Below are positions 18,337 through 52,817 of a stretch of DNA of 64,000 nt, piece by piece. The notes under the pieces are model-generated. The model was not told the origin of the DNA. It ran no database searches and saw nothing but the letters and a program-made list of their open reading frames with translations. Position 1 is the first letter of the stretch. Each line of letters starts with the position of its first letter. Source of the stretch: an uncultured Shimia sp. (lineage in GTDB: Bacteria > Pseudomonadota > Alphaproteobacteria > Rhodobacterales > Rhodobacteraceae); assembly GCF_947493595.1 (NCBI RefSeq), contig NZ_CANLRL010000005.1:179493-243492 (forward strand), read 5' to 3'. The position numbers and the translations under genes were made by a program.

Positions 18337-19614
18337 TCACAAATTTAATCGCATTCGTAGCCCCAGAACCCAAGTGTCATCTTCAGCAAGTCCGGGGTTT
18401 TTCAGGTACTGTGCGTCTACGGTGATCGCGAAATTGTCAGAGACATCAAAGCGATAAAACATCTCTGCCGTTGTCTGGTCCGACAAAGACGCATCACTTG
18501 GATCGGCAACGGTCACACCGAACCCAAACAGGTCATCGTACAACCCAGGCCGCCACATTAACCCAGCATTTACAGCACGTCGCGCGATGGGTGCACTGCC
18601 GTCCGACCAGCCAAGACGTCCAAACAGCATCAAGTTTTCGTTAAATGTCACATTGCCCGATAAAATGGCCCCGTGACTGCTCGGTACGCCCGCGTCTTCG
18701 CGGTCATCAACATGGAAAACGCCAAGGTGCACATTGGTCAAATACCGCTGGTCTTTTGCGGGAGTCCACCCAATTTCACCGTAGGTATAAAACTCGGCTC
18801 CACCCGGAAACCAATTCACATCTGTAAGCGAGCCATTCGCGTCACTCACAATACCAAGCGCATAGATATGATCGGTGATGAAACCGCCACCGGCAATGCC
18901 AAATCCCGGATCGGGGATCGGCAGAACCGGGCTGAACAGGATCGAGTAATTCTGAAAGGTCGTGCGGGGATTCACATATCCAAGGATGTCAGAATAATCC
19001 CCGGGATCGATCCGCCCGGCCACTAATCCCGCCCGTCCTCCAGCCAGTACCTGCGACCAATAGGCGACCGACAGGCTGGTGTCGGTGTCCCCGAACGTCA
19101 CGCCTGTTGCGCCGACATATCCAATCTGGCCGGCGAGGCTGGCAGGCGAAATTGCCTGACCCAGAAGGTGTCGGTTCTCTAGGATAAACACGAGGCTGCC
19201 AGTGTTCGGGCCGTCCCTGTTCAAAAGACTCCAGTTGCCGATGATGCGGGCCTGCCCCGATGCCGATTGGTCCAATCCTGTCAGGCTGTGCGTCGATTGC
19301 TGATACAGCGCCTGATAGTCAAACGACAGCGACAGCCCGGACGATTTCTGAAATCTGCTGAGGGCTTCTTCGGTCGGGTCCAGAGCCCGATCCAAAGACG
19401 GCCAACGCGACTCTTCCAGACGCCGTAACCGATCCTGTTCTTGCTGCGCCTGGGCAGATGCAGGACCACCGATGGATGCTGAGGCAGCAGCTTCAAGCGC
19501 GTTTTGAGGCGAGTTTTCTTGAGCGTCAGCCGTTGCGCTCAACAGCAACGCTGTCAGAAGCCCAGAACAGGCTGAAATCAAGATTTTGTGGCCATTCATA
19601 GGTAGTTCATCCAT
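18337..19614 (-). CDS. Carbohydrate porin, OprB family
   Basis: Signal peptide, SLSFDYQALYQ..., beta-barrel alternation, C-terminal aromatic/hydrophobic strand LGLRMRLNL. Confidence 0.85.
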   Translation of the reverse strand: MDELPMNGHKILISACSGLLTALLLSATADAQENSPQNALEAAASASIGGPASAQAQQEQDRLRRLEESRWPSLDRALDPTEEALSRFQKSSGLSLSFDYQALYQQSTHSLTGLDQSASGQARIIGNWSLLNRDGPNTGSLVFILENRHLLGQAISPASLAGQIGYVGATGVTFGDTDTSLSVAYWSQVLAGGRAGLVAGRIDPGDYSDILGYVNPRTTFQNYSILFSPVLPIPDPGFGIAGGGFITDHIYALGIVSDANGSLTDVNWFPGGAEFYTYGEIGWTPAKDQRYLTNVHLGVFHVDDREDAGVPSSHGAILSGNVTFNENLMLFGRLGWSDGSAPIARRAVNAGLMWRPGLYDDLFGFGVTVADPSDASLSDQTTAEMFYRFDVSDNFAITVDAQYLKNPGLAEDDTWVLGLRMRLNL

Positions 19615-20803: not shown

Positions 20804-21205
20804 CTATTTCAGATCATCGACGGCCTTGACCTCAGGCACGCGTGCAAGCGCTTCGGCCATATCGGGGCTGCTCATCAGTTCGATCATCTGATAGTCGTTC
20901 AGCAACCCATCTCCCATGCGGCTGAGATAGAACGCCTGAATGAATGTCGGGTCATCGGGCAAGGAAACGGTGATGTAATTCTTGCCGTTACCAAGGCCCC
21001 AGTAATAGCTCAGAAGTTCGCCGCCAAGCTTCTCGATGCCGCTGCGTACGCTGGCCTCGCGGTCACCGGGCGAACCGATCAACATCTCCCAAGCAGGGCC
21101 ATTGGGTGTCCCGACAAACATGAACGTGCGGTTGTCGGTCGTTGCCTCGGCCATGGTCATGGATGCGGACGCGCCAAGAATTACTGAGAAAACAAGTGCC
21201 TTCAT
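20804..21205 (-). CDS. Exported GYD-domain-like protein
   Basis: Signal peptide then GDREASVRSGIEKLGGELLSYYWGLGNGKNYITVSLPDD. Confidence 0.65.
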   Translation of the reverse strand: MKALVFSVILGASASMTMAEATTDNRTFMFVGTPNGPAWEMLIGSPGDREASVRSGIEKLGGELLSYYWGLGNGKNYITVSLPDDPTFIQAFYLSRMGDGLLNDYQMIELMSSPDMAEALARVPEVKAVDDLK

Positions 21206-21238
21206 GGTCGTTCCTTTTTGTTGGAGTAGTATCCGAAT

Positions 21239-21270
21239 GCGCGGGGTGACGAGGGATCAACACCCCGCGC
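21239..21270. repeat. Repeated hairpin element copy 1
   Basis: gcgcggggtg-acgagggatcaa-caccccgcgc perfect 10-bp stem; loop shared with 23207-23236. Confidence 0.8.
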
Positions 21271-21492
21271 GACACTCAGTTGAGTGTGTTCTTGTGAATG
21301 GCACCGTCCTTCATAATCTGGCCCATTTTGAAAAATCACTAGAGACCTGGAACGGGCATCTCGAAGACAAAGCCCGTGCCTGCGAATACGTGTTTTCGAC
21401 CAACAAAGTTCCCGAATTATTCGACATGCCTCGTGAGAACTCCACCAAGTTAAGGGGCCAATCCGAATGAAGTGAGAATGGCCCCCTGAGGG

Positions 21493-23175
21493 TCATTGCT
21501 CCGGTGCTCCGGGAATAGAGTTTTCCAACGCTGCAGGGCGATCGGGGAACTCGGAGTGCTCGTCGTCGGGCGTGTCGATATCGGCATGCCAGGTGAACGG
21601 CTTGTCTCCGAGATCCAGATCGATTTCACCATCGGTGATGACCGGATAGCGGATCTGCTGACCAGGCTTCAAGTCGGGGACGGCCACACCGCCGTCAATA
21701 ATCACCTGACCACTGACTAGAACAAAAGGGATGCCTTTGGTGAACGACCCGTTCATTCCTTTTTTCATCGAGGACGTTTCGGTGATCGTGTCCGGATTGA
21801 AGATGGTAATGTCTGCAATCATACCTTCCTGCATTCGGCCACGTTCCTGCATCGGCTTGAGGCCAACACGAGAAAAATACTTGGCCGGGATGTAGGATGC
21901 ATTGTTGACGATCTCCATCAACGGAATGCCCTGTTCGCGCGCCTCGCGGAAGACGATGCCATAGGATCCCGAGTTTCGCGGGTGCCCGCCGTATTCACTG
22001 AAATCTGCATCAAAGGGGAGCGGCTCTCCATCGACGAGGTAGCCGACAATGTCGTTGGCGATGGCGATATCCTTCATGTGGAACCAGCGCTTGAGATCCT
22101 GATCGGGACGTACTTTGATGAAGATAGGCTTGCTGGGATCCTCTTTCTGCTGACGAAAAAATTCATCCTCAGACTCGTAGAGCTCGCCGGTGGCTGTGTC
22201 GAAGATATCGCGTGTCACCTTTATGTTGTTCCCTTCGATCTTGTCGGGCAACAGCTGCGGGGTTGCGATATTCGGGTTGCCGGTGACCGCCGGATAATAC
22301 TCGGCAAAGATGTTCATGCCGCGCCCCTGCAGGCGGCGGACCAGTTCGTAGATCTCCTCCCACCCCTGATTCTGGATGTGCGATACGATCAGTGACCCGT
22401 CCAGCGCGACGGCGTTGGCGATAACCTCGTTCGCGCCCAGAGAATAGTAGAGCGGCAGACTCTCGGTCGGACCAAAGCGGGTATGCGCGCCGAAATAGCG
22501 GTCATACTTCTTGGCCAGTTTCTGGAGCGCAAAAATTTCCTTGGGGAATGTGTTGTAGCCCATGTATCCCACGGTCGTATTCACGGTGATCGCCCCGGCG
22601 CGCAGACCCTTCTCATACATCGTCATGACTTCGGCAAGCTGGCCCTTGGACGGCACGTCCAACGCCCAACTGGCGTGACCGTCCTCCTTCTCGGCTGCGC
22701 CACGGGAGGCAAGGATATAGGTGGGATCGGAGGCAAGTTCGATCGGAACCCAATCCATTACGACACGGCGGATTTCTTCGTGCCCCATCCCGACTCCATA
22801 GTTGAGAAAGGATTTACCCTCGTACTTGTCATAAAACAGCTCGGCATCGGCGACGCCGCTTTCGGTGTCGAGGATTGTGGTCGTCCCGTCATGGGCCATC
22901 ATCTTCTGATCGAACGGACCAAAGGAATGCGAATGCGTGTTGATGAACCCAGGCGCAACGACATGACCGTTGGCGTCAATCTCCTTAGTGCCCCGAAGGG
23001 CATCTGCCGTGATTGACACAATCCGATCACCCTTGATGCAGACATTTCGCACCGCGTCAAAGTTGGTTTCAGGGTCCATCACCCTGCCGTTTACGATAGC
23101 GACGTCGCAGTCCTGGGCCGCAGCCATTCCTGCGACGAACGTCAACGCGGTTGAAAGTAGAAATCGATGCAGCAT
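21493..23175 (-). CDS. Exported N-acyl-D-amino-acid deacylase family amidohydrolase
   Basis: Signal peptide, NGRVMDPETNFDAVRNVCIKGDRI, GFINTHSHSFGPFDQK, HTRFG. Confidence 0.9.
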   Translation of the reverse strand: MLHRFLLSTALTFVAGMAAAQDCDVAIVNGRVMDPETNFDAVRNVCIKGDRIVSITADALRGTKEIDANGHVVAPGFINTHSHSFGPFDQKMMAHDGTTTILDTESGVADAELFYDKYEGKSFLNYGVGMGHEEIRRVVMDWVPIELASDPTYILASRGAAEKEDGHASWALDVPSKGQLAEVMTMYEKGLRAGAITVNTTVGYMGYNTFPKEIFALQKLAKKYDRYFGAHTRFGPTESLPLYYSLGANEVIANAVALDGSLIVSHIQNQGWEEIYELVRRLQGRGMNIFAEYYPAVTGNPNIATPQLLPDKIEGNNIKVTRDIFDTATGELYESEDEFFRQQKEDPSKPIFIKVRPDQDLKRWFHMKDIAIANDIVGYLVDGEPLPFDADFSEYGGHPRNSGSYGIVFREAREQGIPLMEIVNNASYIPAKYFSRVGLKPMQERGRMQEGMIADITIFNPDTITETSSMKKGMNGSFTKGIPFVLVSGQVIIDGGVAVPDLKPGQQIRYPVITDGEIDLDLGDKPFTWHADIDTPDDEHSEFPDRPAALENSIPGAPEQ

Positions 23176-23206
23176 AGATAGTCTCCTTTGGTCAATTTTT
23201 TGAATC

Positions 23207-23236
23207 CGCGGGGTGCCGAGGGATCAACACCCCGCG
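23207..23236. repeat. Repeated hairpin element copy 2
   Basis: cgcggggtg-ccgagggatcaa-caccccgcg perfect 9-bp stem; loop 11/12 identical to copy 1. Confidence 0.8.
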
Positions 23237-23275
23237 CGGCCATGAAGTCATACGCGTTGGCCAACACGTGCAATG

Positions 23276-24528
23276 TCACTCAACCCAATTGGCCTGATAC
23301 ACACGCATCAGGTTTTCACCGAGAAATCCCCGCACATCCTCCGGGCTCCAGCCGTGGACGTCCTCGAGCACCCTGACAACACCCCAGATATCCTGAGGTC
23401 GCGCAATCTGTGTCTGGCTCCCGTAACCCAATTCCGGCGGGTACGAGTCCGGGTTGCGCAAGACGAAATCCAAGGCGCTGACGTAAGCCTCGGCCGTCAA
23501 GTGGTCTGACCCGAAGCAAGTATGCTCGGCACCGACAAGTTCCTTGACGTAGTTGACGTGTCGCGCAACGTCTTCTGACCCAGCGTTGCCTTCCTTGTTC
23601 AGGAAACCACCCAACCCGTTGGTGCAGATGACCCCGCCGGTTTCTGCCACAGCGCGGACAACTTCGTCCGGTGCATTGCGCGGCAAATTATAGGCTCCGT
23701 ACGGGTTGGAGTGGCTCAGCATGATCGGCTTTGTCGAGACGCTCGCGGCATCGAGGCAGGTCTTGTTGCTCGAATGCGTGCAGTCCACGATCATGCCAAC
23801 CCGGTTCATCTCAGTAACAAGTTGAAAACCCTGCTTGCTCAGCCCCGCATCCCTTAACGGATCGACGCCACCGCCATCCGCCATGAAATTCCGGACGTTA
23901 TAGGCGAAATTCATTTGTCTGATGCCGAGTTGGTAATAGACATCGACCATTTCCATTCGCCCCCCAAGGCGTTAGAGCCCTGAAAGTTCAGCATGACAGC
24001 GAATTTGCCTTCGGATTTGGCTCTCCGCAGATCATCGACGGTTTCGACGAATTGATAACGGTCTGAGTTGGCGGCGTAGTATTCCAACGCCTTACCGATC
24101 CACTGGACAATCTGCAGCGGCTCGAACGTGTCATCGACAGCGGCAGTGTAAGACACCGCATCAAACGCGTGCTCGCGGGATCGTGCAACCATTGCTTCGT
24201 AGTCCGCGATCGTTCCGTCAACATACCCTTCCGGTGTGCCAGGGATCAGCGCATCGATTACAATTGCGTCCTTGTAACGCTCAATCACATCGATGTCGCC
24301 GGATCGTTCTTCTTCTGTCCGGGGTTCGACACCTTCGGACAATGTTTGTTTCTTGGCTTCGACCTCCTCGTCAGTAATTGCAAAGGCGGGGCTTATTGCG
24401 GACGACAAAGCCAGTGTCAGGAAAAGCAATGCAAGTTTCTTCAGATGATCAAGGGGGTATCGGAACAGGTCGTTTGATTGCTTTGATCCAGCAACTGCGT
24501 TGTCTGATTTATGTTTCATCGTAGGCAC
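23276..24528 (-). pseudogene. Exported peptidase family M19 (renal dipeptidase-like), split by a frameshift
   Basis: N-terminal ORF 23911-24528 (signal, AIVIDALIPGTPEG, MLNFQGSNALGG) and C-terminal ORF 23276-23956 (MVDVYYQLGIRQMNFAYN...VGMIVDCTHSS...SHSNPYG...GSDH) join at a 6-C run (23960-23965). Confidence 0.8.
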
Positions 24529-37978: not shown

Positions 37979-38374
37979 GATGATCCTAGCGATTTGAGGT
38001 TGGCTTAAGCATGAACGCCCTGTCTTTAATGCAATAGCGAGTCACAGGGCAGGTATTGTATGCCGATGTATACCAAGCTTGAAAAAGACGCAAGTTGCCC
38101 TTCGGAACAATTGTCTTGGCCTCCCCCAAATGTGATGGCGCAGTGCGGCGTATGGCCCCCAATGTAGGCTGCCCTGTCCGGTTTTTCCAGCGCACAACAA
38201 CCTTCCAAGCCGCACAGATTGGGAAGCTGTTTCCGGTTAAGACGCGCTTTGCCAAGCTGCGGGGATTGTATTCAAACAATATCTTGTGATCCATGACGCG
38301 AGGTGTCGCAGCATTTTGTTTTCGACGGCGCAGAATGGCTATTGACTCAGCCGCCAGTTTCCACGACTTGGAAA

Positions 38375-38560
38375 GGGATGGTTCCCGAACGACGCCAGTC
38401 AACCGGGATGAAAAGGGAATACGGTGCGGCCACCTCAAGGTGCCAAATCCGTGACTGCCCCCGCAACTGTAAGCGGTAAGCGACCCCGAAAAGACCACTG
38501 AACGCCAGGCGTTTGGGAAGGTTCGGGAAAGCCACAATCCGCGAGTCAGGAGACCTGCCA
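38375..38560 (+). promoter_or_regulatory. Cobalamin (B12) riboswitch
   Basis: gtgactgcccccgcaactgtaagcggtaagcg ... gccactg...cgcgagtcaggagacctgcc B12-box architecture. Confidence 0.95.
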
Positions 38561-38676
38561 TCCAGACGATAACTTCAACCCGGGCGGGGCGTCCGGACAG
38601 GAGGCCAAGATGGCTTTACGGTTTGAACCGTGTGAAAAACTGACTGTGCTTGCCCCGCGCTATCGCGGAGGGCGAG

Positions 38677-52379: not shown

Positions 52380-52485
52380 TTGGTGTGTGACTTGGAGTGG
52401 TTTGGAACCGAATATCGCGCGCGACACACAGATCCAGCGCACACCCCGTCGCCGATGATGCACGCCCCTTCCGGGGGCGCGTGTT

Positions 52486-52656
52486 CGGCAGGTCTCCTGA
52501 CTTGCGGGTCAAAACACAAAGCTGGCCTTCCCGGAGTGTCCCAGTGGCATGATCAGCTGTGCTCGCCGCTTACAGTTGCGGGGGCAGTTGCAGAGTTGGC
52601 CGAAACGTCAGCCGCACTGCATTCCCTATTGCTTCCGAGGATTCCCCGGAACCGAA
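52486..52656 (-). promoter_or_regulatory. Cobalamin (B12) riboswitch upstream of cbiKLMQO
   Basis: Minus strand: ggaagcaatagggaat ... gcaactgcccccgcaactgtaagcgg ... ccgcaagtcaggagacctgccg. Confidence 0.95.
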
Positions 52657-52817
52657 CATGCTGCGTGTTTGCCAGAGCAAAGCAGGATTGGTCAATAAGG
52701 GAATGCGACGCAGTGGGTGCAAATTGCGAACGGCATGTTGCCACGGCGCATGCATTGCCTTGGCATGGCGGTGACCAACCTGGTCGCGCTATTTCAGCCA
52801 CATGAACGGGAGGAGAG

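Follow-up and report, generated by a model that had tools for sequence, protein, structure and literature searches.

Two nearly identical hairpins lie between genes of one minus-strand series in an uncultured Shimia sp., and the locus raises the question of whether such structures belong to the genes that follow them or to the gene that precedes them. The window analyzed here is the whole stretch of 64,000 nucleotides that contains this series. The element formed by the hairpins is real and conserved, and is reassigned from a leader of the downstream genes to a 3′ element of an upstream gene.

Hairpin copies in the window

The first-pass annotation placed two 37-nt hairpins 30–35 nt upstream of the start codons of a GYD gene and a D-aminoacylase gene. 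Both are present on the minus strand (Table 1), and their proximity to the two genes holds, with measured gaps of 29 nt (GYD) and 26 nt (D-aminoacylase). The annotation was also correct that neither copy is followed by a T tract, the mark of an intrinsic terminator. The copies are identical at 35 of 37 nt; their flanks are unlike, with 27% and 40% identity over the 30 nt compared. A pattern search of the window allowing up to three mismatches returned two matches versus none expected, and a search of the whole 4.28-Mb genome returned these two copies only, with no match for the reversed-pattern control. Folding energies of −24.3 and −25.3 kcal/mol were obtained for the two RNAs (z-scores −5.8 and −4.7).

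Table 1. Positions of the hairpins and neighboring genes in the 64,000-nt window
Feature	Position	Strand	Evidence and remarks
GYD-domain protein, 3′ of copy 2	20804..21205	−	PF08734, just under curated cut-off
Hairpin II, copy 2 (10-bp stem, loop TTGATCCCTCGT)	21235..21271	−	Covariance model 82.5 bits, E 2e-17
Hairpin I (ACACTC-AACT-GAGTGT), directly 5′ of copy 2	21272..21287	−	RNA fold and homologues
Relic of amidohydrolase C-terminus, 15 codons, QIMKDGAIHKNTLN-stop	21276..21320	−	38/45 nt identical to intact G029 gene
D-aminoacylase-like amidohydrolase, 3′ of copy 1	21493..23175	−	PRK09061 subfamily, score below curated cut-off
Hairpin II, copy 1 (hairpin I absent 5′ of it)	23202..23238	−	Covariance model 28.2 bits, hairpin II part only
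M19 membrane dipeptidase, 5′ of copy 1	23276..24528	−	Two frames: 24528-23911 and 23956-23276

Read along the minus strand, the series runs from the M19 dipeptidase through copy 1, D-aminoacylase, copy 2, GYD, and HlyD to the OprB porin, with a divergent AraC-type regulator. The sequence GCCAACGCGTATGACTTCATGG 5′ of copy 1 may be an amidohydrolase relic as well but is too short for a firm assignment. The interval of ∼170 bp that separates the D-aminoacylase stop from the relic next to copy 2 (21321–21492) gave no Pfam match in the frame tested; an inverted repeat, GGGGCCA...TGGCCCC, lies in this interval near 21455–21490. The M19 dipeptidase gene is frameshifted near a G6 run (23911–23970, minus strand), whereas the G029 homologue (L167) has an uninterrupted frame there; a mutation specific to the lineage, slippage, and a sequencing error could each account for the split. 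The genome of Shimia 4-924 (L010/L055) carries a D-aminoacylase remnant that is 72% identical, covers residues 361–560 only, and contains internal stops; therefore, such genes appear to be repeatedly lost. Two cobalamin riboswitches are located elsewhere in the window, at 38362–38576 (plus strand) and 52470–52671 (minus strand).

Homologues in roseobacters

The comparison started from the D-aminoacylase orthologues of Ruegeria arenilitoris (L036 and L037). L037 carries a comparable hairpin, ending in T7, 5′ of the D-aminoacylase gene; this hairpin lies right behind the stop of an amidohydrolase whose C-terminus is IMKDGVIYKNTLD. The relic 5′ of copy 2 in the window derives from this type of C-terminus. 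A covariance model built from both window copies and the L037 hairpin detected convincing copies in relatives, immediately 3′ of the stop of amidohydrolases with the IMKDGVIYKNTLD C-terminus. A second covariance model enlarged the family to ∼20 copies from ∼12 roseobacter genomes (Shimia-like, Ruegeria, and others), the least certain being G091, in which the hairpin lies ∼115 nt past the matched amidohydrolase end, G312, and G013_C6. The covariance search proposed by the first-pass annotation therefore shows that the hairpins are not confined to this genome.

Simpler patterns were less productive. Owing to the variable 5′ half of the loop, a search of 195 relatives with the exact hairpin pattern recovered no genuine copies. 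A stem-anchored CCTCG pattern gave ∼75 matches in 397 genomes versus ∼15 in the control, mostly within coding sequence; the good matches are 3′ of amidohydrolases, plus one terminator in G141. That terminator (L200, G141:C25:218912) has the loop TCTCCCTCGGT and a T5 tail and directly follows an unrelated gene; loops with CCUCG may occur more widely among the terminators of Rhodobacteraceae. Searches of plasmids found no further convincing copies, Rfam 15 gave no match at the gathering score and only a chance-level one otherwise, and no description of such a hairpin element was found in the open literature. In L092 (G015:C10, contig 18878–19462), two element copies occur in tandem 517 bp apart, with a GYD gene between them; the second follows the degraded tail of an amidohydrolase, so that this locus parallels the window independently.

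Structure and covariation

The full element is a tandem consisting of a 6-bp stop-codon hairpin (hairpin I, which the first-pass annotation had overlooked), one base, and a 10-bp hairpin (hairpin II). The consensus of hairpin I is ACACUC-NNYU-GAGUGU, in which the last codons form the 5′ arm; in the window, it encloses the TGA stop of the relic amidohydrolase. Hairpin I is kept in the Shimia-like and Ruegeria homologues and is missing in the group of L037, G105, and G029_C25, as it is at copy 1. Copies with hairpin I use ACA CUC, and copies without it have ACG CUG. The consensus of hairpin II is GCGCGGGGYG ... CRCCCCGCGC. The element is a searchable, covarying RNA structure that spans a stop codon and connects the 3′ UTR with the choice among synonymous codons.

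Compensatory changes are found in both helices: ACGCUC/GAGCGU replaces the consensus arms of hairpin I in G241_b and G300 (A-U to G-C), and hairpin II changes from U-A to C-G in ∼8 of 20 copies and elsewhere from C-G to G-C. Across 20 copies, 94% of hairpin II cells are paired, the two helices show 19 double-sided changes versus 5.7 in shuffles, and the covariation score is reached by none of 500 shuffles, although these counts, like those of conservation, are inflated by shared ancestry and recombination. Because changes in hairpin II include 17 G-U cells versus three A-C cells, the sense RNA is likely the selected form, and not a DNA palindrome.

Conservation of the loop beyond the stem, as the first-pass annotation had it, applies to one half of the loop. 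Eighteen of the 20 copies retain the 3′ half, CCUCG[G/U] (a count subject to the same inflation), and the 5′ half varies, so conservation of the whole 12-nt loop does not hold. Since the 5′ half varies freely among homologues, a recent local duplication is the best reading, from sequence comparison, of the identical loops in the window. Most copies have no T tract, but L037 and G105 end in T7, G029_C25 has TTTT, and in G029_C22 CATC is followed by a T-rich stretch. The boundary with terminators is therefore blurred.

Gene context

An amidohydrolase gene or its relic precedes all copies except copy 1, which follows the M19 dipeptidase. The downstream genes represent at least seven families: a second amidohydrolase, D-aminoacylase, GYD, DUF3299, M19, OprB porin, and a biotin-lipoyl protein. 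Because the upstream gene is constant and the downstream gene varied, the element is assigned to the 3′ intercistronic region of amidohydrolase genes. The closest syntenic state to copy 2 is G241_b, in which an intact amidohydrolase and the hairpin are followed by GYD and OprB genes 87% and 75% identical to those of the window. The earlier view of the hairpins as leaders of GYD and D-aminoacylase genes was not borne out; the copies do not specifically precede D-amino acid, dipeptidase, or GYD genes, and there was no sign of the ligand sensing that a sensed RNA element would imply.

Most copies start at, or a few bases past, the amidohydrolase stop codon and usually end ∼25–45 nt 5′ of the next co-directional gene, leaving its ribosome-binding site free. 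A stable stem-loop between co-directional genes just after the upstream stop is the position typical of the stem-loops of selective RNA processing and stabilization (SRPS). Stems of at least 8 bp lie within 52 nt of the stop in 41 of 70 amidohydrolase genes of the family and at 95 of 772 other ORF ends, a comparison that ignores relatedness and takes some spurious ORFs into the control. Nineteen of the same 70 amidohydrolase genes have no scored stem, which indicates that the element is non-essential. CCTCG occurs in eight of 42 loops after amidohydrolases versus one of 128 after other ORFs. Many post-amidohydrolase hairpins are unrelated in sequence; therefore, a hairpin is common at the 3′ ends of this family, with the CCUCG form as one conserved lineage among them. 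Two other ideas were rejected: stop-codon readthrough, suggested by the L036 frame, is contradicted by an in-frame stop in G005, and inspection by eye showed no consistent pairing between the loop and the downstream ribosome-binding site across copies.

Mosaic gene ends

The body of the amidohydrolase gene and its tail have different affinities. The R. arenilitoris L036 gene body is 90–91% identical in amino acids to those of the orthologues G029_C25 and G105, and the tail and hairpin are only 55% identical. The L036 tail is instead 79–86% identical in DNA to those of G029_C22, G013A, G005A, G015_1, and G009A, the bodies of which are 42–47% identical. G009A and G241_a are likewise mosaic (bodies 84%, tails 67% identical). 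The jump in identity lies ∼40 nt 5′ of the stop. Judged from these alignments, paralogue exchange, or recombination at a conserved gene end during operon shuffling, would explain the mosaic best, because selection on the structure would hardly account by itself for the synonymous codons shared beyond the stem. The mosaic suggests that such 3′ modules are swappable among paralogues and able to outlast the gene served.

Proposed function and alternatives

A conserved 3′ intercistronic RNA element of this roseobacter amidohydrolase family that acts as a segmental mRNA stabilizer, and as a partial terminator where a T tract is present, is the somewhat favored explanation. It draws on the post-stop position, the free ribosome-binding site, the general lack of T tracts, and the sense-strand covariation. 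The element probably guards or trims one segment of a multi-gene message. The polycistronic message would first be cut or degraded, and the GC-rich stem or stems would then block 3′-to-5′ exonucleases and so define where the amidohydrolase segment ends; partial termination would be added wherever a copy retains its T tract. The outcome would be different message levels for the flanking genes, as in SRPS. In the Shimia sp., the element may have survived the loss of its gene: copy 2 would mark the lost amidohydrolase, and copy 1, which today separates the dipeptidase gene from the D-aminoacylase gene, would have arisen by duplication or conversion. As the operons were reshuffled, paralogues may have swapped the tail-plus-hairpin module. 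The locus offers a compact test case for intercistronic hairpins that set gene dosage in marine roseobacter catabolic operons.

A plain stabilizer needs no conserved loop, yet CCUCG is nearly always kept, which counts against that explanation. A protein or small RNA could bind the CCUCG[G/U] loop half and thereby regulate the amidohydrolase message at the 3′ side, in the manner proposed for the L17 downstream element. The conserved 3′ half of the loop beside a variable 5′ half, the enrichment of CCTCG after amidohydrolases, and covariation of the stop-codon hairpin at a synonymous codon would allow this; however, the partner is putative, the motif may be partly structural (a YUCG-type loop or a U-G stem extension), and paralogue exchange could spread one loop without selection, which makes this site quite improbable. 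It is also unlikely, by a slight degree less so, that the tandem of stop-codon and CCUCG-loop hairpins constitutes a 3′-UTR cis-regulatory RNA class, bound by a trans-factor, that controls amidohydrolase output and moves between paralogues as a self-contained module. A doubtful but conceivable origin is a decayed intrinsic terminator or attenuator: the ancestral form would have stopped or lowered transcription beyond the amidohydrolase, with later loss of the T tracts from the window copies. The T tracts in L037, G105, G029_C22, and G029_C25 and the similar-loop terminator after an unrelated gene in G141 are in keeping with such an ancestor, but most copies with the conserved stem keep stem and loop without a T tract, a co-directional gene usually begins a short distance downstream, and hairpin I has no role in a simple terminator.

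The remaining readings concern DNA and the downstream genes. A REP-like mobile repeat or a DNA operator palindrome, which a dimer could bind, would accommodate modules that are exchanged between paralogues and found as relics. The first-pass annotation had named genome-wide scatter as grounds for rejecting its proposal; such scatter is absent, with two copies in 4.28 Mb and none scattered in relatives, and the excess of G-U over A-C cells points to RNA, so this reading is very unlikely. A leader or riboswitch-like element of D-amino-acid or GYD genes agrees with the short distance to both window start codons and is scarcely tenable elsewhere: the downstream families vary against a constant upstream gene, no copy immediately precedes the D-aminoacylase orthologue of L036, and the hairpin does not cover the ribosome-binding sites. 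Gene context already refutes it, unless the window copies were newly recruited.

Relation to known systems

There is precedent for 3′-UTR stem-loops that stabilize operon segments (PMC8219983, PMC5927463). SRPS stem-loops are described in the Clostridium cip-cel operon (PMC4423207, PMC8219983), and differential decay of operons in E. coli involves conserved protective structures within coding regions (PMC5927463). The roseobacter element resembles SRPS stem-loops in its strength, in its location immediately 3′ of a gene within an operon, and in the frequent lack of a T tract. SRPS stem-loops are, however, known mainly by position and stability, whereas the roseobacter element, as read from DNA sequence, is a sequence-conserved tandem that has one half of its loop fixed and accompanies a single gene family. 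The L17 downstream element (RF01708) is a 3′-UTR structured RNA of one gene family in Lactobacillales and Listeria (PMC2864571). It is similar as a conserved 3′-UTR RNA tied to a single gene family and differs in its host group, and it gave no match in the Rfam scan. Rho-independent terminators share the GC stem directly after the stop and, in some roseobacter copies, the T tract; in contrast, the window copies and most others lack T tracts and lie inside apparent operons. The puf intercistronic hairpin of Rhodobacter, also alphaproteobacterial, stabilizes an upstream segment. Unusual in the roseobacter element are the conserved loop half and the modular exchange.
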